64,000 nucleotides of DNA from Luteitalea sp. TBR-22 (GTDB taxonomy: Bacteria; Acidobacteriota; Vicinamibacteria; Vicinamibacterales; Vicinamibacteraceae), in contig NZ_AP024452.1 in NCBI RefSeq assembly GCF_016865485.1, positions 3,370,501-3,434,500 of the forward strand. Direction: 5' to 3'. Position numbers and translations under genes: made by a program. The notes below the pieces were generated by a model. The model made no database searches. It saw only the letters and a program-made list of their open reading frames with translations, and had not been told where the DNA came from. Positions within the stretch are counted from its first letter, which is position 1, and each line of letters starts with the position of its first letter. Below, one piece after another: positions 24,018 to 37,267 of the stretch.

Positions 24018-25421
24018 CTACAATTCGCGATCCACCGGAATCTTCGCGTCGTACTGCTCCTGTCGATACGGCACGAAGCCGACGCGCTGGTAGTTGCGGA
24101 CCGCGGCCGGGTGGTCGAGCGAACAGGTGTGGAGCCACACGCGCTCCGGCTGGCTGGCCCACGCCTCGCGTGCCGCGACCGTCAACAGGGCCGGGCCGAG
24201 ACGCTGGCCGATGAACTCGGGGAGCAGGCCGAAGTAGCAGATCTCGACCTCGTGCGCGGTCCGGTGCAACTCGAAGTAGCCCGCCGGCGTGCCCGCCACC
24301 GTCAGCAGCCAGATCTCGATCCCGCCCGACGCGAGATGCTCGGCAACGCGCGCGTCACTCCAGTCCCACCGGTCGATCCAGTGCCACGGACGTCCGACCT
24401 CGCGGTACAGGTATCGGTACAGCGAGCCCGGCACGACATCGAGGCGGCGCACCACGGCATCCACGTCCGGGAACGCGAACGGCACGACCTGGCTCGCCGC
24501 GCGCATCTCGAGGAACGTGCGGGTCGCCGGACGGTGCAGCAGGCGCGACGACGGGCGGGCCGGCCGCTGGCTCTCGAACGTCGTCCGCCACCGCCGCCCG
24601 TCCTGCAGCACAGGCTGCATGGCCGAGGCGTCGCCAGCGAGCATGTCCGGGGTCGGCAACGCGGCGCGCAAGGCGTCGAGCGCCTGGCCGACGTACGTGG
24701 CGTTGGTGGCCAGGATGTCCAGCCACAGCGCCGGCGCACTGCCGGCCAGTCGCGTGGTGTCCACCAGCCCCGGGCCGGCGAACTGCAGGCCGTCGCTGGT
24801 GACGGCCCTGCCGGTGACGGCCATGAGCGTGCTGCTCACGACCTGCGGCAGGTGGCTCACGTACGCCATCACGTGGTCGTGCTCGTCGGCGCCCATCACG
24901 ACCGGGCGCGCGCCGATGCCCACGACCAGTTGCGTCAGTCGCGCCAGCGCCTCGCCCACCGCACCGGGTCCGAGGGGACTCTCGGCGTCGGGCGTGAGGA
25001 TCCACGGGCGACCGAGGAAGAGTCCGGCGTCGGCGTGCGCGAAGCCGCTGTGCGTGCTGCCCGACATCGGATGCCCGCCGAGGAAGCACACGCCGGCGTG
25101 CGTCCGGGCGTGCCGCACCATCGCGCCCTTCGTGCTGCCGAGATCGGTGACGACGGTCGGCGCAGCCACGTACGGGGCGAAGGCGTCGAGCAGGCGCAGG
25201 TTCTCCAGCACCGGTGCGCCCAGCACCACGAGATCGGCCTCGGCCGCCGCGGCCGGTGACGACACGAGCGTGAAGTGCGCCTTCACGCGTGGGTCGGCCG
25301 CCGGGTCGAGCACGGTGATCGCCACCTCCGGCCACACGGCGCGGATGGCCAGTCCGAGCGACCCGCCGACCAGCCCGCAGCCGACGAGCAGGACGCGGTC
25401 GAAGGGCGCCGGATCGCTCAC
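24018..25421 (-). CDS. tyrA: Prephenate dehydrogenase fused to a GNAT acetyltransferase domain
   Basis: Last gene of the aromatic supra-operon; 467 residues in one frame. Residues 1-285 are TyrA: NAD-binding [13 protein letters not shown], an Asp at the end of beta-2 (VLDPAADP) favouring NAD over [12 protein letters not shown], catalytic His in GGHPMSGS, and [14 protein letters not shown]. The enzyme oxidatively decarboxylates prephenate to 4-hydroxyphenylpyruvate for tyrosine. From about residue 300 a GNAT fold begins ([53 protein letters not shown]), with the Q/RxxGxA-type acetyl-CoA loop as IGQRLGPAL. The acetyl acceptor is unknown. The GTG start overlaps the DAHP synthase stop by 4 nt (GTGA). 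No ACT regulatory domain is seen. Confidence 0.88.
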
Positions 25422-26590: not shown

Positions 26591-26896
26591 TCACTCCCGC
26601 TTCCCTTCGTCCTGCGCTTGCGCGGTGACGCGCTCGAGGCGCCTGGCCTCGTCGATGATGCGCTCGAAGAGCCGCATCACGGCGTCGCCGTCGAGGGGCC
26701 CCGGGTTCACGCGCCGCACGTGGTCCAGCACGTCCTTCTCGCGGCCCGGCTGGTAGATCGCCATGCCGATGCGCCGCTTGATCTCGCCGATCTCCAGCGC
26801 GCACGCAGCACGCTCGTTCAACAGCCCGACGATCTGCTCGTCGAGCGCGTCGATCCGATCGCGCAGCGCGCGCATGCGCCAGTCGGGGTCGGTCAT
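26591..26896 (-). CDS. Monofunctional chorismate mutase (AroQ class)
   Basis: 101-residue all-helical chorismate mutase converting chorismate to prephenate. The first helix RIDALDEQIVGLLNERAACA carries the two arginines used for the carboxylates, KRRIGMAIYQPGREKDVL carries the active-site lysine and arginine, and FERIIDEARRLE the C-terminal helix. The ATG overlaps the trpA stop (ATGA). Placing it between trpA and DAHP synthase/tyrA puts the branch to Phe/Tyr in the same transcript as the Trp branch. No prephenate dehydratase gene is in the window. Confidence 0.9.
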   Translation of the reverse strand: MTDPDWRMRALRDRIDALDEQIVGLLNERAACALEIGEIKRRIGMAIYQPGREKDVLDHVRRVNPGPLDGDAVMRLFERIIDEARRLERVTAQAQDEGKRE

Positions 26897-27696
26897 GGCC
26901 GTGCCTCCCGTCCGGTGAGCCAGCGCACGAACCCGCGGACCTCGTCGGCCAGTTGCGGCGACTGGCCGTGCCTGGCGACCTGCGCCACCAGGGCGCTGCC
27001 GACGACGGCCGCGTCGGCGTACCTGCCGACGTCGCGGATGTGCTCGGGCCTCGACAGGCCGAAGCCCAGCGCGATCGGCAGCGTCGAGTCCTGCCGCAGG
27101 CGCTCGACCAACTGCCGCGCGTCGTCGGCCACCTGCTCGCGCACGCCGGTCACGCCCAGCCGCGAGATGGCGTAGAGGAAGCCCTTGCCGAGCGCATCGG
27201 CCTTGCGCACGCGCTCGGCGGTGGTCGTCGGCGAGAGCAGGAAGATGGGCGCGAGCCCGTGAGCGACGAGCACGTCTCGCGTCGGGCCGGCCTCCTCGAG
27301 CGGCAGATCGAGCAGCAGCACGCCGTCGACGCCGACCTCGGCGGCACGGGCGGCGAAGGCCTCGATGCCGAAGCGGACGACGGGATTGGCGTAGCTGAAG
27401 AGCACGAGCGGCGCCTCGACGTCCTTGCGCAGGTCGCCGACCAGGTCGAGCACCCCGCGCAGCGTCGCGCCGGCCCGCAACGCCCGCTCCGACGCGCGCT
27501 GGATCTCGGGGCCGTCGGCCAGCGGGTCGGAGAACGGCACGCCGATCTCGATCACGTCCGCGCCGCCCTCGTCGATCGCCCTGATGACCTCGCCGGATCG
27601 CTCCAGCGTGGGGTCGCCGCCCGAGACGAAGGCGACAAGCCCGGTGCGTCGATCGGTCTTCATCCGCGCGAAGGCCTGTTCGATCCGCGTGCTCAT
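26893..27696 (-). CDS. trpA: Tryptophan synthase alpha subunit
   Basis: TIM-barrel subunit that cleaves indole-3-glycerol phosphate to indole and glyceraldehyde 3-phosphate. Catalytic Glu and Asp sit in [16 protein letters not shown]; the phosphate-binding region is [12 protein letters not shown] plus AAVVGSALV. Length 267 is normal. The ATG overlaps the trpB stop by 4 nt, and its own stop overlaps the chorismate mutase start, so translation is coupled on both sides. Confidence 0.95.
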
Positions 27697-28937
27697 GCCT
27701 GATCTCCGAGCAGGTGCTGGATGCTCTGCACGTCCTTGTCGCCGCGTCCGGAAAGGTTGACCACGACGATCCCCTCGGGGCCGACCTCGTGCGCCACCTG
27801 CTCGACGGCGGCAATCGCGTGCGCCGACTCCAGCGCCGGCAGGATGCCCTCGAGTTGGCCGAGCCGCTGGAAGGCGGCCAGCGCCTCCGGATCGGTGGCG
27901 TAGCGGTACTCGGCGCGCTTCTTCTGCAGCAGGTCGGCGTGCTCAGGGCCGACCGCGGCGTAGTCGAGGCCTGCCGACACCGAATGGGTCAGCGAGATGT
28001 TGCCGGCCTCGTCCTGCAGCACCCACGTGCGCGTGCCTTGCAGCACGCCCGGCACGCCGCCGGCGAAACGCGCCGCATGGCGTCCCGCCACGATCCCTTC
28101 CCCGCCGGCCTCGACGCCGATCAGGCGCACCGACGGATCGGCCACGAACGCGTCGAACAGGCCCATCGCGTTGCTGCCGCCGCCGACGCAGGCGAGGGCG
28201 GCATCGGGCAGTCGTCCGTAGGTCGCCAGGCACTGCGCCCGCGCCTCCTCGCCGATCACCGACTGGAACTCGCGCACCATCAGCGGGTACGGGTGCGGGC
28301 CGAGCGCCGACCCGAGCAGGTAGTACGTGTCGCGCACGGTGGCGACCCAGTCACGCATCGCCTCGTTGATCGCATCCTTCAGCGTCCGCGCGCCGGAGTC
28401 GACGCCCCGGACCTCGGCGCCGAGCATCCGCATCCGGAACACGTTCAGCGCCTGGCGGGCCATGTCGTCGACGCCCATGTACACGACGCATTGCAGCCCG
28501 AGCAGCGCGCACACGGTCGCCGTGGCCACCCCGTGCTGCCCCGCGCCGGTCTCGGCCACGATGCGCGTCTTGCCCATGCGGCGCGCCAGCAGCGCCTGCC
28601 CGAGGGCGTTGTTGATCTTGTGGGCACCGGTGTGCGCGAGGTCTTCCCGCTTGAGCAGGATCGTCGCGCCGCCACAGGCCTCCGTCAGGCGCCGTGCCTC
28701 GTACAGTGGCGTCGGCCGCCCCACGAACTGCCGCAGGAGGTGCTCGAACTCGGCGATGAACGCCTCGTCGCGACGCACCGCCAGGTACGCCTCCTCGAGC
28801 GCCTGAATCGGCGCCACGAGCGTCTCGGGCACGAACCGCCCGCCGAACTCGCCGAAGTACCCGCGGGCATCGGGGTCGCGACGGCCGAACACCGGTCGTC
28901 CCCCTTGTTGCTGCCCTGTCGTCATCATCGCGTCCAT
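27693..28937 (-). CDS. trpB: Tryptophan synthase beta subunit
   Basis: PLP enzyme that condenses indole with serine. The PLP lysine is in [13 protein letters not shown], the substrate loop in [11 protein letters not shown] and the phosphate loop in [13 protein letters not shown] at 28937 is used: AAGGTG lies 6 nt upstream and an extra Gly/Arg-rich extension of the open frame overlaps trpF. The product is 414 residues, of the TrpB1 type that pairs with TrpA. It starts 5 nt after the trpF stop, one of the few non-overlapping joints of the operon. Confidence 0.95.
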
Positions 28938-28942
28938 TCCAT

Positions 28943-29551
28943 TCACCTTGCCTCGCGCACGGCCTGCACGAATGCCCTCACCTTGCCCGGATCCTTCACG
29001 CCCGGCGCCTGCTCCACGCCCGACGCCACATCCACGCCCCACGGGCGCACCATCCGCACCGCATCACCGACGTTGTCGGGCGTCAGGCCGCCCGCCAGCA
29101 CCAGGCGGCGCGTCGCCGCGATCGCCCTGGCCGCCTCCCAGTCCACCGTGCGTCCCGTGCCGCCGATCGTGACCGGGTCGTGCGCGTCCACGAGGATGGC
29201 GGCACGTGCCTGCTGCCACGGGCTGTCGGCGTAGGCCTCGACGGGCATCGCCTTGAGGACCGGCCGCGGGAACCTCGCCCAGTCCAATGGGGTCTCCTGC
29301 CCGTGCAGTTGCACCGCCGACAGGCCCACCGCGTCGGCGATGCTGCGCACCTGATCGGGCGTCTCGTCGACGAACACGCCGACCGTCGCCACCAGCGGCG
29401 GCACCACCCGGGTGATCGCCCGGGCCCGCTCGACGTCGACGGCGCGCCTGCTGCCCGGCCAGAAGATCAGCCCGATCGCGTCGGCGCCCGCGTCCAGCGC
29501 CAGGAGCGCGTCGTCGACCGACGTGATCCCGCAGATCTTGATGCGGGTCAC
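28943..29551 (-). CDS. trpF: Phosphoribosylanthranilate isomerase
   Basis: Catalyses the Amadori rearrangement of N-(5-phosphoribosyl)anthranilate. The catalytic Cys is in the N-terminal [11 protein letters not shown] and the catalytic Asp in [10 protein letters not shown]; the phosphate sites are [10 protein letters not shown] and [15 protein letters not shown]. The GTG start at 29551 overlaps the trpC stop (GTGA). The product has 202 residues, a normal single-domain length, so trpC and trpF are separate here, unlike the enterobacterial fusion. Confidence 0.95.
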
Positions 29552-30417
29552 CGCGAGGCCTCCAGCGCGGCGGTCGCCTCCGCGAGGACCCGCGCCAGGC
29601 CGGCGCCGGGGTCGGCCTCGGTCATGAAGCGCTCGCCGATGAGGAACGCCCCGTAGCCCGCGTCGCTCAAGGCCGCCAGGTCCGCCCCGGAACGCAGGCC
29701 GCTCTCCGCGACGCGCACGGTGGCCGACGCGATGAGGGGCGCCACCCGGTATGACGTGTCCAGCGACACCGCCAGCGTCTTCAGGTTGCGGTTGTTCACC
29801 CCGACGACCGCCGCGCCGGCGTCGATGGCGCGGCGCGCCTCGTCCTCGTCGTGCACTTCGGTGAGCACGTCGAGGCCGACTTGCGCCGCGTAGCCGAGCA
29901 GCCGCTGCAACGCCGCCTGCTCGAGCGCCGCGACGATCAGCAGCACCGCCGACGCGCCAGCCACGGAGGCCTCGGCGATCTGGTACTCGTCGACGACGAA
30001 GTCCTTGCGCAGCAGCGGCAGCGCGGGGTGGGCAGCGTGAACCGCCTCGAGGTGATCGAGCTGGCCGTCGAAGAAGCCCGGTTCGGTGAGCACGGAGATG
30101 GCCGCCGCGCCCGCGCGCCCGTAGCTGCCGGCAATCGCCACGGGGTCGTAGTCGTGGCGCAGCACCCCCCTGGACGGCGACCGCCGCTTGCATTCGGCGA
30201 TCACGCGGATGCCCGGCGCCTGCAGCGCGCGCGTGAACGCGCCGTTCGTCCCGGACGGGCCCCCTGACGGGTCACTTGCCGGACGCGGGGTCGCGGCGCG
30301 ATCGATGAGCACGCGTTCCAGGTCGGCGAGGCTCCGGCGCTCCCGCGCCACCTCCACGCGACGACGCGCGGCGGCGACGATGGTGTCGAGCACGGACGGG
30401 GTGGCGGGCATCGTCAT
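29548..30417 (-). CDS. trpC: Indole-3-glycerol phosphate synthase
   Basis: Closes the indole ring in tryptophan synthesis. Motifs: IAECKRRSPSRG with the substrate-binding Lys, LLRKDFVVDEYQI with the catalytic Lys, VGVNNRNLKTL, and AESGLRSGADL. The 289-residue product begins at an ATG that overlaps the trpD stop by 4 nt (ATGA). A Pro/Ser/Gly-rich insertion (about residues 46-60, ASDPSGGPSGTN) in the N-terminal helical extension is slightly longer than usual. Confidence 0.95.
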   Translation of the reverse strand: MTMPATPSVLDTIVAAARRRVEVARERRSLADLERVLIDRAATPRPASDPSGGPSGTNGAFTRALQAPGIRVIAECKRRSPSRGVLRHDYDPVAIAGSYGRAGAAAISVLTEPGFFDGQLDHLEAVHAAHPALPLLRKDFVVDEYQIAEASVAGASAVLLIVAALEQAALQRLLGYAAQVGLDVLTEVHDEDEARRAIDAGAAVVGVNNRNLKTLAVSLDTSYRVAPLIASATVRVAESGLRSGADLAALSDAGYGAFLIGERFMTEADPGAGLARVLAEATAALEASR

Positions 30418-31441
30418 GCCGTGGCCTCGACGGAGGCCTGCGAGACCTCGACAAGCCGCCGCAACGTGGCGGCCGCCCGGCCGTCGTCGATCGCGGCCGC
30501 GGCGGCGGCGACGCCTTCGGCCACGGCGGGCACGCGGCCGGCGATGAACAGGCCGGCGCCGGCATTGAGGAGGACGATGTCGCGGACCGGTCCGGGTTCG
30601 CCGGCGAGCACGCGACGCGCGACGTCGGCGTTGTAGGCCGCGTCGCCGCCCTTCAGGTCGGCGAGCGTGGCCTTGGCCAGCCCGAACGCGCCGGGGTGCA
30701 CGAAGAACGTGCGCAGCAGCCCGCCGCGGCACTCCGACACCTTCGTGTAGCCGGTCGTCGACAGCTCGTCGAGGCCGTCGGCCGCGTGCACCACCCACAC
30801 GTGCGTCGAGCCGAGCAGGCCGAGCGCCCGCGCGACCAGTTCGGTGAGCTCGGGCCGGGGCACACCGACGAGCTGCCGGGTGGTGCCCGCAGGGTTGGTG
30901 AGCGGCCCGAGCAGGTTGAAGGCGGTGCGCACGCCCAGTTCGCGCCGCACCGGCGCGGCGTGCTTCATGGACGGGTGGAAGGTCGGCGCGAACAGGAACG
31001 CGATGCCCACTTCGTCGAGGCAGCGCGCCACCACGGCCGGCGTGGCGGCGACGTTGACGCCGAGCGCCTCGAAGACGTCGGCGCTGCCGCTGCGACTCGA
31101 CACCGAGCGGTTGCCGTGCTTGGCAACGCGCACGCCGGATGCGGCGAGCACGACGGCCGCCATCGACGAGACGTTCACCGTGCCCGCGTTGTCGCCGCCG
31201 GTCCCGCAGGTGTCGAACACGTCGGCGAAGGCCTGCGGCAGGGGAACGGCCGCGGCGCGCATCGCCCGTGCGAGCCCGACCAGTTCCTCGGGACGCTCGC
31301 CCTTGGATCGCAGCGCCATCAGGAAACCGGCGACCTGCGCCGCCGTGGCCTCGCCGCGCATGATGGCGGCCATCGCGGCGGCGGCCTCGTCGGTGGTGAG
31401 CGGCACGTGCCGCTGCAGTTTCTCGAGCAGGGGCGCGAACA

Positions 31442-31442
<1 letters not shown>
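30414..31442 (-). CDS. trpD: Anthranilate phosphoribosyltransferase
   Basis: Transfers phosphoribose from PRPP to anthranilate. PRPP-binding CGTGGDNAGTVNVS, anthranilate-site KHGNRSVSSRSGSAD, and the metal-binding DE pair in ADGLDELS are visible. The 342-residue product starts at an ATG that shares one base with the trpG stop (TGATG). It is a stand-alone enzyme, not fused to trpG. Confidence 0.95.
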
Positions 31443-32008
<566 letters not shown>

Positions 32009-32010
32009 GG

Positions 32011-33525
32011 CTACCCGGCGTGGCGCCCGAGCGACTGGGCGAGTTCGAGCGCACCGAGCACGGCACGCGCCTTGTTCAGGGTTTCTTCGTACTCGGCGGC
32101 CGGGTGGCTGTCGGCCACGATGCCGGCGCCGGCCTGCACGAAGGCGAGGCCATCGCGCATCCAGACGGTCCGGATGGCGATGCAGCAATCGAGGTTGCCG
32201 GCGAAGTCGAGGTAGCCGACCGCGCCCGCGTACACGCCGCGCGGCCGCCCCTCGAGTTCCGCGATGATCTCCATCGCCCGGATCTTCGGGGCGCCCGACA
32301 CGGTGCCGGCCGGGAAGCACGACACCAGCGCGTCGAGCCGGTCGGCGTCGTCGGCCAGCGTGCCGACCACGCGCGACACCAGGTGCATGACGTGCGAGTA
32401 GCGCTCGAGCGTCATGAACTGCGGCACCCGCACCGAGCCGTACTGGCAGACGCGCCCGAGGTCGTTGCGCCCGAGGTCGACCAGCATCACGTGCTCGGCA
32501 CGTTCCTTCTCGTCGCGCTTCAGCTCCTCACCGAGGCGCAGGTCCTCCTCGTGGGTGCGGCCGCGCGGACGCGTTCCGGCGATCGGGTGCGTCTCGGCCT
32601 GCCCGGCCTCGACGCGCACCAGCATCTCGGGCGACGAACCGACGATGGAGAGGTCGCCGACGCGCATGAAGTACATGTACGGCGAGGGGTTCACGTGGCG
32701 CAGCGCGCGGTACACCGTGAAGGGGTCGGCGTCGAGCTGCACGTCGAACCGTTGCGACAGCACCACCTGGTAGATGTCGCCCTTCTTGATGTAGGCCTGC
32801 GCGGTGCGGACGGCCTGCTCGAAGTCCTCGCGCCTGGTCAGCGGCGTGACCACCGGCGGCGCCGGCGCCGCCTCGCCCCCGGCGATCGGCTGCGCGTGGG
32901 CCTGCTCGAGCTCGCGTTGCAGGAAGTCGAGCCGGGCGTTGGCGAACTGGTACAGCGAGGCCAGGTCGTCGCTGGGCGCGATGCGCGCATTGGCGATGAG
33001 CAGGATGCGGTGCTTCACGTGGTCGAACGCGAGCACCGTGTCGAAGAGCATGAAGGCCGCCTCGTCGCGCGGATCCTGCGCGGCCCGGTAGGCCTGCCAC
33101 GTCTCCTGCAGCTTGGGCTCGAACCACGGCGCTGCGTCGTAGCCGAAGAACCCGACGGCGCCGCCGGTGAAGCGCGGCAGGCCCGGCACGAAGGGCGACC
33201 GGTACTCCGCCATGATGCGCCGCAGCGCCGAGACGAACGTCTCGTCGAGGGCCGACACCTGCCCCCCCTGCTCCATCACGGCCTTGCCGTCGCGGGCCCG
33301 CAGGACCAGGAACGGGTCCTTGCCGAGGAACGAGTAGCGCGCCACCTGCTCGCCGCCCTCGACGCTCTCGAACAGGAACGCGTAATCGGAGTGTTCCGCA
33401 ACGCGCAGGAACGCCGAAACGGGCGTGAGCAGGTCGGCCAGCAGCTCGCGGCACACCGGCACGAAGGTGCCGCGGCCGGCGAGATCGACGAATTCCTCGA
33501 ACGTGGTCTGGGTCATCGCGGACAT
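32011..33525 (-). CDS. trpE: Anthranilate synthase component I
   Basis: Converts chorismate plus ammonia to anthranilate. The N-terminal allosteric motif is [18 protein letters not shown], equivalent to the LLES tryptophan-binding element, so feedback inhibition by Trp is expected. The chorismate-binding domain has [40 protein letters not shown] and [13 protein letters not shown] at 33525 is preferred for GGAGA 4-5 nt upstream; the alternative ATG at 33516 would give the 4-nt ATGA overlap with aroDE seen elsewhere. Length 504. Confidence 0.95.
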
Positions 33526-35012
33526 GGGGTCTCCGGCACGAGGGCCAGCTGGGGGGCCTCGGCATGGATGGCGGCGCGCATGGCGTCGAGCGGCGGGGCG
33601 ACGCCGAACCAGGTGGCCACCTGCACGCCCGCCTGGCCAATCAGCATCTCGAGCCCGCCGAGGGTGTCGCACCCCGCAGCCGCCGCCTCGCGCAGCAGCC
33701 GGGTGCGCCCCGGGTTGTAGACGAGGTCGTACACGAGGCCACCGCTCGTCAGGCGGTCGGCGTCGATGGGCGTGGCGTCGCTGGCGCCGTCGTGCGACGC
33801 GGTGCCGACCGGCGTCGTGTTGACCAGCACGTCCCAGGTGCCGGGCTCGGGACTGGCCTGGCCGGCGCGGGCGCCGAGCGCCACGAGCTGCTCGGCCTGC
33901 TCGCGGCGACGCGCATGCACCGTGGGCGCCGCCCCGGCGTCGACCAGGCCGGCGACGACGGCCCGGGCGGCGCCGCCGGCGCCGAGCACCGCGACCCGCA
34001 GGCCCGACAGGACCCGGCCGGTGCGCGCGAGCCGGTCGCGCAACGGCTGGAGGAAGCCCTCGACGTCGGTGTTGCGCGCGGCCCAGCCGCCCTCCACGCG
34101 GGTCAGCGTGTTGGCGGCGCCGAGGCGCGTCGCCAGCTCGTCGGCGCGGACGGCCGCCGCCAGCGCATCGAGCTTGAACGGCGCGGTGACGCTGAGGCCG
34201 CGGACGTCGAGCGCCTCGGCCATCGTGAGCAGGTCGCCGATGTCCTGCGCCTCGAAGGGGACGTACACGCCATCGACGCCGAGCGCGCGAAGCGCCGCGT
34301 TGTGCAGCGTCGGCGACCAGGAGTGGCTGATGGGCCGCCCCGCGACGCCGAACACCTGCGTGGTCGGTCCCTGCTGCCCGACGCGGTAGCGCGCGCGCAT
34401 CACCTCCGGACGCACCTGCCCCGGCGCAACGGCCGCTCCGCCGTACGTCCAGTGCGATCCCAACCGGGAGGGCAGCAGGCGCGACGGCAGGCCCACCGGG
34501 CCCATCGCGATGAGCACCAGCGGCACGTCGCCAGCGGCCGGAGCCGCCGCGCGGAATGCGAGCTGGTCGGTGAGGCGGGTCGGCGTGACCGCCAGCTTCA
34601 CGACGCCCGGCCGGCGCGCCGCCATCGCCGAGACCAGAGCGGCCAGGTCGGCCGGCATCCCCTTGAAGTCGTGTCGCGACAGGATCACCCGCCCCGGGAA
34701 CGCCGCGATGAAGTCGTCGGCAAAGGGCGCGTCCCACTCGACGTCCACGTAGGCCGCGCCGTGCGTCAGCGCCTCGCGCAGGCGCGCCTCGCGCGCCGAC
34801 TCCTCGCCCTCGAATCGCCCGCCTTCGCGGACCGGCCGGAACGTCACCACGGCCCGGCTCGCGGCCTCCCCCATCACCTCGGCCACCGGCAACGGCGGCA
34901 ACCGGTCGAGCCTGAGCTCCACCAGGTCGGCAACGCGCAGCGCCTCGGCCCGCGCGGCGGGCAGGGCGTCGACGCTCAGGTCGGCCAGGGTGGAGACGAG
35001 GGTGGTCGGCAT
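33513..35012 (-). CDS. Bifunctional 3-dehydroquinate dehydratase / shikimate dehydrogenase
   Basis: 499-residue fusion carrying out two consecutive shikimate steps. Residues 1-220 are a type I (class I aldolase) dehydroquinase with the catalytic His in VILSRHDFKGMP and the Schiff-base Lys in VVKLAVTPTR. Residues 221-499 are AroE: FGVAGRPISHSWSPTLHN, catalytic Lys in SVTAPFKLDAL, GAANTLTR, catalytic Asp in RNTDVEGF, NADP-binding VAVLGAGGAARAVVAG. The order AroD-AroE is the same as in plant DHQ-SDH. It is the first structural gene after the Trp attenuator, so a general-pathway enzyme is placed under tryptophan control together with trpEGDCFBA. Confidence 0.93.
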   Translation of the reverse strand: MPTTLVSTLADLSVDALPAARAEALRVADLVELRLDRLPPLPVAEVMGEAASRAVVTFRPVREGGRFEGEESAREARLREALTHGAAYVDVEWDAPFADDFIAAFPGRVILSRHDFKGMPADLAALVSAMAARRPGVVKLAVTPTRLTDQLAFRAAAPAAGDVPLVLIAMGPVGLPSRLLPSRLGSHWTYGGAAVAPGQVRPEVMRARYRVGQQGPTTQVFGVAGRPISHSWSPTLHNAALRALGVDGVYVPFEAQDIGDLLTMAEALDVRGLSVTAPFKLDALAAAVRADELATRLGAANTLTRVEGGWAARNTDVEGFLQPLRDRLARTGRVLSGLRVAVLGAGGAARAVVAGLVDAGAAPTVHARRREQAEQLVALGARAGQASPEPGTWDVLVNTTPVGTASHDGASDATPIDADRLTSGGLVYDLVYNPGRTRLLREAAAAGCDTLGGLEMLIGQAGVQVATWFGVAPPLDAMRAAIHAEAPQLALVPETPCPR

Positions 35013-35019
35013 ACGTGAA

Positions 35020-35047
35020 GTCTCGGGACTCAGGGTTCAGGGCTCAG
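35020..35047. repeat. Degenerate heptamer array between attenuator and aroDE
   Basis: Units GTCTCGG, GACTCAG, GGTTCAG, GGCTCAG at 7-bp spacing, lying 8 nt before the aroDE ATG and therefore in its translation-initiation region. Confidence 0.5.
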
Positions 35048-35108
35048 AAAGCATGCTGACGGGCATCTGTGTGTTCTCTGAGCCTCGAGCCGGGGATCTT
35101 TCGTCGTG

Positions 35109-35185: not shown

Positions 35186-35299
35186 CTAGACGGCCGCCCC
35201 CTCGGCTCTGGAGCCAGACCACCACCAATACCGCGCCGAAAACGGCACGCGGCTGGAGGCCGGCTGCGAGACGAAGGAGGTGGCGGCGATGACCCGCAT
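35186..35299 (-). CDS. trpL: Trp leader peptide with three consecutive Trp codons
   Basis: 37-codon open frame MRVIAATSFVSQPASSRVPF... containing Tyr-Trp-Trp-Trp at residues 24-27 (Trp codons at 35227-35219) and ending TAG at 35188-35186. It precedes the terminator/antiterminator pair and the aroDE-trp operon on the same strand. Low charged tRNA-Trp would stall a ribosome at the triple Trp, release region 2 and allow read-through; adequate Trp would let the ribosome reach the stop and favour termination. No Shine-Dalgarno is visible; a TACGGT box lies 9 nt upstream, so the leader mRNA may start almost at the ATG. The arrangement matches the enterobacterial logic but not its sequence. Confidence 0.88.
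   Translation of the reverse strand: MRVIAATSFVSQPASSRVPFSARYWWWSGSRAEGAAV
35195..35206 (-). promoter_or_regulatory. Antiterminator segment (region 2) of the Trp attenuator
   Basis: Minus-strand GCCGAGGGGGCG overlaps the last sense codons of the leader peptide, 12 nt after the Trp codons. It pairs over 12 bp (one G-U) with CGCCCCTTCGGC (35137-35148), the 5' arm of the terminator. It can also pair with GCCGCCACCTC near the leader start (10 of 11 bp). A ribosome stalled on the Trp codons would free it; one at the stop codon would cover it. Confidence 0.8.
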
Positions 35300-35308
35300 G
35301 TGAGAGGC

Positions 35309-35338
35309 ACCGTACCAGAGTCGTCCGAACTGCGTCAA
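35309..35338 (-). promoter_or_regulatory. Promoter of the trpL-aroDE-trp supra-operon
   Basis: Minus-strand TTGACG (35338-35333), 18-nt spacer, TACGGT (35314-35309). Initiation about 7 nt further on would fall 2-3 nt before the trpL ATG at 35299. A TrpR-type operator is not recognisable. Confidence 0.5.
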
Positions 35339-35353
35339 CGTGCGTCCAACGTT

Positions 35354-37267
35354 ATGACGCGCGCCACTGGTTCGCTTGACCCCCTCTCCCCCGCGTGTCA
35401 TAACGGCCGAACCTTGCTCTTCCCTGCTTCCTCGCCATCTCGCCTGCGCCGCAGCGTCCTCCTGGTCGCACTGGCCGTCCTGCTGTGCGTCGCGCCCGTG
35501 CCGGCGCGCCTGGCAACGTTCCCGGTGAGCGAGATCAGGCGCGGCCAGGTGGCCGAAGGCCTCACCCGGATGGAGGGCGGCGAGCAGGTCCGGTTCAAGG
35601 CCCACGTCCTCGGCGTGCTCGACGGCGTCGTCGGTCCCCGGCGGCAGGTGATTCTCGCCAGGCTCGAGGGCGCAGGTCTCGAGAACACCGGCGTGATCGC
35701 CGGGATGAGCGGCAGCCCGGTGTACATCGACGGCCGGCTCGTCGGCGCCGTCGCGTACTCGATGGGTCAGTTCCCGAAGGCGCCGATCGCCGGCATCACG
35801 CCGATCGCCGAGATGCAGGACGCGACGTCGATGCCAGCGGCGGGCCTGCGTGCCGTCGCCGCCTGGCCGCTCGACACCACGCTCACGCCCGAGGCGTTGC
35901 GCGAGGCGTTCCTGGCATCCCTGCCGGGGCGCGACGGCATCGCCGTTCCGGCCAGTGCACTGCGCAACCTCGGCGTCGAGTCGACGAGTTCGCCGCTGTT
36001 GCGGCCGATTTCCACGCCCCTGTCGATGAGCGGCTTTGCCCCGGGCATCGGCCGATGGTTGGCCGACACGCTCGGCGAGGCCGGGTTCGCTCCGGTCTCG
36101 GCCGGCGCAGGCGCGTCCGCGGGCGGGGCGGCCGTGGCTGACGGCGGCCCGCTGCAGCCCGGCGACGCGGTGGGCGTGAGCCTGGTGCGGGGCGACCTGT
36201 CGCTCGGCGCGACCGGCACCGTGACCAGCGTCGAGGGCACGCGGGTCCTGGCGTTCGGCCACCCGTTCTTCAACCTCGGGCCGGCGCAGTTGCCGATGAC
36301 CCGCGCGCAGGTCGTCGCGGTGGTGCCGAGCCTGCTGAACTCCATCAAGCTGGCGCAGCTGGGTGACGTGGTCGGCGTGATGGATCAGGACCGGGCGACC
36401 GCGATCGGCGGCACGCTGGGCGTCACGCCCCGGACGATCCCGCTCACCGTCTCGCTGCGCGCCAATGGCAGCGCGGCGCGCACCTTCGCCTTCGAGGTGT
36501 CCGAGGACCAGCTCTTCTCACCGCTCATCGTCTACGCCGCGGTGGCCAACGTGCTGCAGTCGTACCAGCGCGAGATCGGCGCCTCGACGGTGCGCCTCGC
36601 CGGCTCGGCGCAGGTCGGGGCCAGCGTGCTGCGCCTCGACAACGTGTTCGGCGGCGACGGCGCCGTCGCGACGGCCGCCGCGTCGGTGGCCGCCCCGCTG
36701 GCCGCCGTCCTGCGCAGCGACCTCGGCACCCCGCGCCTCGGGCCGATCGCGCTGACCCTCGACACCGAGGAGCGGCAGCGCTCGACCCGCCTCGACCGCG
36801 CCTGGATCGCCGAGCCCCGCCCGCGCGCCGGCGACACGATCACGCTGCGCGCCGAGACGCGCAACTTCCGCAGCACGCCGCAGCTGCACACGCTGTCCAT
36901 CGCGCTTCCCCCGGGCGCCACCGGGACGCTGCAGCTGCAGATCATCGACGGGTCCACGCTCGCGCAGCTCGAGGGACGGCGACGCACGGTCGAACAGGCG
37001 CGCTCGGTCGACGAGCTGGTCGGCCTGCTGAACCAGCAGCGTCGCGGCGACCGCTGGTACGTGCGGCTCGTGCGTCCCGCCGCCGGCTCGGTCGTCAACG
37101 GCCGCGACCTGCCCGCCCTTCCCGGCAGCGTGCTGCAGGTGCTCGGCGCGACCCCCGGCGTGGTCGCCACCTCGCTCGACCAGGACGTGCTCGGCGAATG
37201 GGAGATTCCCGCCGACGCGGTCGCCACCGGGCAGCGCACGATCGCCATCACGCCCCTCGTTCCGTAA
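35354..37267 (+). CDS. Exported SpoIVB-type S55 peptidase domain protein
   Basis: Secreted or periplasmic protein with an S55 (SpoIVB-like) serine peptidase-type domain. A signal peptide/anchor (about residues 33-50, SVLLVALAVLLCVAPVPA) leads into TFPVSEIRRGQVAEGLTR and the catalytic-type motif GVIAGMSGSPVYIDGRLVGA (about 115-134), then GHPFFNLGPAQLPMT. The C-terminal 250 residues look like beta-rich modules (TLRAETRNFRSTPQLHTLSI). S55 proteins in Acidobacteriota and Planctomycetes are usually uncharacterised. The start is ambiguous: ATG 35354 or TTG 35414; a TTGACC-N17-CATAAC promoter (35376-35404) would favour the TTG. It is divergent from the trp leader. Confidence 0.78.
   Translation: MTRATGSLDPLSPACHNGRTLLFPASSPSRLRRSVLLVALAVLLCVAPVPARLATFPVSEIRRGQVAEGLTRMEGGEQVRFKAHVLGVLDGVVGPRRQVILARLEGAGLENTGVIAGMSGSPVYIDGRLVGAVAYSMGQFPKAPIAGITPIAEMQDATSMPAAGLRAVAAWPLDTTLTPEALREAFLASLPGRDGIAVPASALRNLGVESTSSPLLRPISTPLSMSGFAPGIGRWLADTLGEAGFAPVSAGAGASAGGAAVADGGPLQPGDAVGVSLVRGDLSLGATGTVTSVEGTRVLAFGHPFFNLGPAQLPMTRAQVVAVVPSLLNSIKLAQLGDVVGVMDQDRATAIGGTLGVTPRTIPLTVSLRANGSAARTFAFEVSEDQLFSPLIVYAAVANVLQSYQREIGASTVRLAGSAQVGASVLRLDNVFGGDGAVATAAASVAAPLAAVLRSDLGTPRLGPIALTLDTEERQRSTRLDRAWIAEPRPRAGDTITLRAETRNFRSTPQLHTLSIALPPGATGTLQLQIIDGSTLAQLEGRRRTVEQARSVDELVGLLNQQRRGDRWYVRLVRPAAGSVVNGRDLPALPGSVLQVLGATPGVVATSLDQDVLGEWEIPADAVATGQRTIAITPLVP
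35376..35404 (+). promoter_or_regulatory. Possible promoter for the S55 domain gene
   Basis: TTGACC (35376-35381), 17-nt spacer, CATAAC (35399-35404). If used, transcription would begin near 35411, at the in-frame TTG at 35414, making this another near-leaderless gene. Confidence 0.45.

Follow-up and report, generated by a model that had tools for sequence, protein, structure and literature searches.

The trp attenuator of E. coli follows a four-strand logic of Trp codons, a 1:2, a 2:3 and a 3:4 pairing and a U-run, with a 5′ UTR that carries a Shine-Dalgarno (SD) sequence and a strand 2 that lies downstream of the leader ORF. Attenuators whose leader ORF is leaderless have also been reported. 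In the trpL-trpE(G) system of Sinorhizobium meliloti (rnTrpL, peTrpL; Bae and Crawford 1990, cited in PMC7298713), the trpL transcript is described as starting at the trpL AUG and as being translated into a 14-amino acid peptide before trpE(G) (PMC7298713; PMC10117765). Likewise, trpL1 of Streptomyces lividans is a WWW leader of 18 amino acids, reported to be leaderless, that stands before a monocistronic trpE and is followed by hairpins and a U-rich stretch (PMC8079986). Leaderless leader ORFs are also described as attenuators for amino acids other than Trp, namely in mycobacterial polycysteine ORFs (Canestrari 2020, cited in PMC9031893) and in the ilvB leader of Corynebacterium diphtheriae (PMC5784534); the likeness of these two to the locus considered here is in the leaderless ORF and its use for attenuation. 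Leaderless genes have been predicted in three of three acidobacteria, where they are given as 9.7-19.4% of genes (PMC3160421), and in the literature searched we found no description of the element considered here, nor any mapped transcription start for Luteitalea.

The window (the whole 64,000-nucleotide stretch of Luteitalea DNA that was analysed, to which all positions refer) contains a short leader ORF with clustered Trp codons, trpL, ahead of an aroDE-trpEGDCFBA operon (Table 1). The locus has the same four-strand logic as the E. coli attenuator, but it is SD-less and its strand 2 lies inside the ORF, before the stop codon. The 37-amino acid peptide is longer than that reported for S. meliloti, which belongs to another phylum and has trpE(G) in place of the Luteitalea operon. 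It also differs in length from that of S. lividans trpL1, as does the operon from a monocistronic trpE, and the likeness to trpL1 is one of published description (PMC8079986). Whereas the S. meliloti transcript is reported to start at the AUG, the 9-nt gap between the -10 box and the ATG in Luteitalea suggests a stub of 0-3 nt. The initial annotation had supposed that ribosome loading at the RNA 5′ end would synchronise translation with transcription in a way different from the classical systems. Our analysis lends no support to this beyond what leaderless attenuators already show, and the claim is weaker because leaderless trp attenuators have been described in S. meliloti and S. lividans. 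The novelty lies in a design that lacks the SD across the order and in which the start codon drifts; leaderless trp attenuation itself was already known.

The names of the trp genes are our reading of Pfam domains and of their order. Downstream of trpA, Pfam domains of chorismate mutase, DAHP synthase and prephenate dehydrogenase follow, and at the end of this run of aromatic genes the prephenate dehydrogenase is apparently fused to a GNAT acetyltransferase domain (24018-25421). Between the attenuator and aroDE lies a dispersed intergenic repeat (35022-35091); when the same genome was searched with an 801-base query, 35 of 36 additional matches fell on this repeat.

Table 1. Features of the trp leader and operon in the window
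Feature	Position	Strand	Remarks
-35 box TTGACG	35338-35333	minus	TTGAC or TTGTC kept in family relatives
-10 box TACGGT	35314-35309	minus	18-nt spacer to -35 box
Gap GCCTCTCAC, 9 nt, -10 box to ATG	35308-35300	minus	Length kept while sequence differs in relatives
trpL leader ORF, 37 codons, encoding MRVIAATSFVSQPASSRVPFSARYWWWSGSRAEGAAV and stop	35299-35186	minus	WWW peptide
Strand 1, codons 5-9	35287-35273	minus	Pairs with strand 2 if ribosome is absent; minimum-energy fold, duplex -25.7 kcal/mol
Hairpin with UUUU loop directly before Trp codons	35252-35231	minus	Strong in window's family only
Three Trp codons of trpL	35227-35219	minus	
Strand 2, inside ORF between Trp codons and stop	35206-35195	minus	Pairs with strand 3 (antiterminator)
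Strand 3	35148-35137	minus	12-bp helix with strand 2
Strand 4, 3′ arm of terminator	35132-35120	minus	Pairs with strand 3
T-rich run TTTTTGTTTTT after terminator hairpin	35119-35109	minus	
aroDE, fusion of a type I 3-dehydroquinase with a shikimate dehydrogenase	33513..35012	minus	Pfam; first structural gene after attenuator
trpE, trpG, trpD, trpC, trpF, trpB, trpA, in order	26893..33486	minus	Pfam and gene calls

A promoter matrix was used to score every placement in the window, 511,720 over the two strands, and ranked the trpL promoter first at 20.7 bits, the runner-up having 12.1; a somewhat smaller matrix ranked it second among all placements in 464 kb of the same genome. To avoid circularity, the matrix had been trained on 110 trp-leader promoters from outside the window's family. 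A scan for the promoter consensus that required nine or more matches out of 12 did not pick up the trpL promoter, because TACGGT matches the consensus at only three of six positions. No SD-like motif precedes the trpL ATG (35299-35297, minus strand), and the -10 box stands at a conserved distance from it that would allow a 5′ UTR of 0-5 nt. It had been claimed that TTGACG-N18-TACGGT, 9 nt before the ATG, was the best promoter and that the ATG lacked an SD; the first is borne out by the matrix rank and the second by the sequence and by the counts over the order given below. On the plus strand, a divergent promoter-like site, TTGACC-N17-CATAAC (35376-35404), stands ahead of a gene whose product has a Peptidase_S55 (SpoIVB) domain.

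By the usual spacing, our best guess for the transcription start is A35301, the eighth nucleotide after the -10 box, which would give a 2-nt UTR; a start at A35299, the A of the ATG and the tenth nucleotide, is also possible. Both fall in the range of 35302-35299 that had been put forward for the 5′ end, which seems reasonable as a prediction. The start base could not be fixed from composition, since over the order the enrichment of purines falls on positions 4-5 downstream of the -10 box and not on 7-8, and pyrimidines are enriched at 6-9, which counts against a confident single-base start. The trpL gap has its mode at 9-12 nt over the order, as against 6-8 nt in the other leaderless candidates of the window's own genome, and because the 9-nt gap of the window exceeds the latter, a stub of 1-3 nt is likelier than a strict 5′ AUG. 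The conserved promoter and gap, together with the absence of an SD, make a 5′ UTR of 0-3 nt probable, and the trpL mRNA is probably leaderless in this loose sense.

A protein search with aroDE yielded seven genomes of the family (the window's own included), one Vicinamibacteraceae MAG and 148 of the 162 genomes of the order Vicinamibacterales. We examined the upstream regions of 130 loci, from 129 of these 148 genomes and the MAG, whose leader is identical to that of a genome from another family of the order (G060). In most of the other genomes the match was partial or lay at the end of a contig, and one locus of only 102 bases (L067) had been left out beforehand. A leader ORF with a W cluster was found in 126 of the 130 loci and not in L017, L053, L083 and L096, although the RNA model described below still matches their genomes (G052, on another contig; G149; G136; G133). 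The promoter score was at least 8.5 in 117 of the 126, a value reached by 10.6% of shuffled regions. Leaving out the nine loci with scores <8.5, two with TTG starts only (L123, L125) and L016, because its leader region equals that of L097, we obtained a set of 114 leaders. Within the family, the gap is 9 nt in five of the six genomes with a readable leader and, in the sixth, 10 nt by eye or 12 nt by the script's choice of hexamer, while the nine gap nucleotides themselves diverge in sequence; in the seventh genome (G003), the match is a C-terminal fragment of aroDE at a contig end.

Over the order, in summed counts, no in-frame ATG occurs at 0-7 nt after the -10 box, as opposed to 30 in 200 in-frame slots at 8-12 nt. 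The first ATG or GTG follows the box by 5-13 nt in 53 of the 114 leaders, by 14-19 nt in 20 and by at least 20 nt in 41, and an SD motif precedes it in none, none and three of these, respectively (3/114). When any downstream in-frame start was allowed, 10 of 114 loci (five, zero and five in the three classes) had a candidate start with an SD motif, a point against the leaderless reading. The SD test used a generic anti-SD motif; a survey gives CACCUCCU as the anti-SD for Vicinamibacteria, and in the single contig of the window's own genome (G000) neither 16S rRNA nor its anti-SD was found by an RF00177 match or an anti-SD pattern, possibly through masking. Since short gaps occur in 10 of 14 families, they are not one lineage's accident, though the loci are related and not independent. 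The gap conservation, the matrix rank and the SD counts thus lend good comparative support to the proposal that trpL is leaderless or nearly so. By the same counts, the start lies over 13 nt away from the -10 box in 61 of the 114 leaders, and leaderlessness is therefore not required for the attenuator. There was no trade-off between UTR length and the distance to the Trp codons (correlation -0.09, n = 114).

Elsewhere in the window's own genome, by comparison, an SD motif precedes 81 of 345 called gene starts. A leaderless signature also occurs there: of 213 candidate ATG starts of genes that are first in their unit, 19 have TAnnnT at a distance of 6-9 nt upstream, where internal ATGs would lead one to expect ~0.3. 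Thus, the genome seems to employ both ways of initiation. Genes were called simply by codon usage, with identified genes as seeds, and start sites are approximate; calling trained on long ORFs picked antisense frames and was discarded.

We consider it very likely that the locus is a ribosome-mediated trp attenuator, whose leader mRNA starts 0-3 nt before the AUG, with SD-less initiation by the ribosome at the 5′ end of the RNA. From the promoter and its gap, the ORF, the competing helices, their conservation and the operon, all of which were computed, we infer the exact 5′ end, ribosome loading at that end and the response to tryptophan. Without a ribosome, strand 1, which is made of the first codons, would pair with strand 2, the 3:4 terminator would form, and the operon would be off. 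With charged tRNA-Trp present, the ribosome would reach the stop codon and cover strand 2, and the terminator would form as well. If tRNA-Trp is short, the ribosome would stall on UGGUGGUGG, past strand 1 and before strand 2, the 12-bp 2:3 antiterminator would form, and RNA polymerase would continue into aroDE-trpEGDCFBA.

The two structures are mutually exclusive, strand 2 being freed by a ribosome on the Trp codons and covered by one at the stop. In a partition-function model of the window, a ribosome on the Trp codons gives an antiterminator probability of 0.93-0.95 and a terminator probability of 0.00, while a ribosome at the stop, or none, gives a terminator probability of 0.97; relative to shuffled sequences, the fold of the ribosome-free leader has a z-score of -2.6. 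As the 1:2 helix is predicted to leave the terminator formed when there is no ribosome, the operon should not come on unless a ribosome initiates at the 5′ end, just as strand 1 makes leader initiation necessary in classical attenuators. The complement of strand 1 reads, on the plus strand, GAAGGAGGTGGCGGCGATG (35273-35298), which looks like a strong SD followed by an ATG and opens a four-codon ORF, and is probably a by-product. The hairpin directly before the Trp codons has shuffle z-scores of -1.3 to -3.5 in six family loci and a mean z of ~0 over 114 loci; we therefore rejected it as an order-wide pause signal, and it is a candidate RNA polymerase pause hairpin specific to the family.

Among the relatives, a terminator is present in 123 of 125 loci, and in 98 of 123 the 2:3 complementarity is greater than in almost every shuffle; most loci have their strand 2 between the Trp codons and the stop. 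When transcripts of the relatives were cut before strand 4, strand 3 was paired upstream with a mean probability of 0.74 with the ribosome stalled and of 0.27 with it at the stop. For full transcripts with a stalled ribosome, the equilibrium model gives a mean terminator probability of 0.92 over 123 loci; since the relatives mostly favour the terminator even then, the switch of most of them would have to be kinetic, which argues against a purely equilibrium view, and the clean equilibrium switch modelled for the window is atypical of its relatives. Base triples of strands 2, 3 and 4 covary (A-U-A, G-C-G, U-A-U), as counted in 109 loci preselected for a 2:3 helix of at least 7 bp.

We think it improbable that the conserved promoter is secondary and that a promoter further upstream gives an otherwise ordinary attenuator a longer 5′ UTR without an SD. 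About half of the order's leaders start at least 14 nt after the -10 box with no SD, so that SD-less initiation with a real UTR does occur in the Vicinamibacterales; however, no other minus-strand placement near the leader scores above -0.2 bits, as against 20.7, and a comparison by eye within the genus finds the -35 box, the -10 box and the gap kept and the sequence upstream of them poorly kept. Translation could also begin at an in-frame GTG that is present in the window (codon 18, 60 nt after the -10 box), in which case the spacing of the ATG would be incidental. Such a start has very little to recommend it, as the GTG is absent from the relatives L010, L011 and L012, each of which has its ATG at a gap of 9, no SD is seen before it by eye, and it would leave strand 1 untranslated.

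It is just as hard to believe that the terminator answers to a trans-acting protein or to tRNA binding (T-box), with the ORF incidental. Nothing was found in favour of this. No Rfam family matches the trp-leader locus at its gathering score, and a tRNA gene elsewhere in the window is the only match that passes, which gives no support for a T-box or riboswitch; over the terminator, RF00236 is the only match, below its gathering score. Moreover, UGG clusters precede the switch in 126 of the 130 loci, and the place of strand 2 between the Trp codons and the stop in most loci also speaks against it.

Ribosome-mediated attenuation at an SD-less leader thus remains our preferred reading, and we followed its distribution with a covariance model built from 35 loci, the window left out. 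The model recovers the window with E 1.3e-8, and a search of 161 genomes of the order gave matches in 143. Of 297 genomes sampled evenly over the phylum, 42 match, 30 in the order and 12, weakly, outside it; three of the latter (L191, L193, L196) have a convincing WWW leader. In contrast to the SD-less leaders of the order, L193, which is acidobacterial, has an SD-like GGAG 6 nt before its ATG. One genome (G002; L010:3086-3265) has a trp attenuator without strand 3 of the terminator, either a natural deletion or an assembly fault.

A broader proposal, which we put forward as speculative and rather unlikely, is that the trp attenuator of the Vicinamibacterales dispensed with the SD as a matter of design, in leaders with stubs of 0-5 nt and in those with longer UTRs alike: the start codon would move relative to the promoter while the switch stays, the 1:2 lock of the genus, removed only by a ribosome that loads at the 5′ end, would make 5′-end initiation an input to the switch, and the 9-12 nt mode of the gap, as against 6-8 nt in the other leaderless candidates, would be a tuned stub that sets the rate of loading.

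One survey notes that hardly any predicted attenuator of the Acidobacteria has been linked to a function (PMC2965389); for the trp attenuator described here, a function is proposed. The leaders make a comparative case for leaderless attenuation in the Acidobacteriota, with more than 100 related leaders, nearly all SD-less, whose start codon drifts relative to the same promoter, from a distance of 5 nt to one of over 30 nt. Such a series would allow the effect of 5′-UTR length on ribosome loading and attenuation to be tested.
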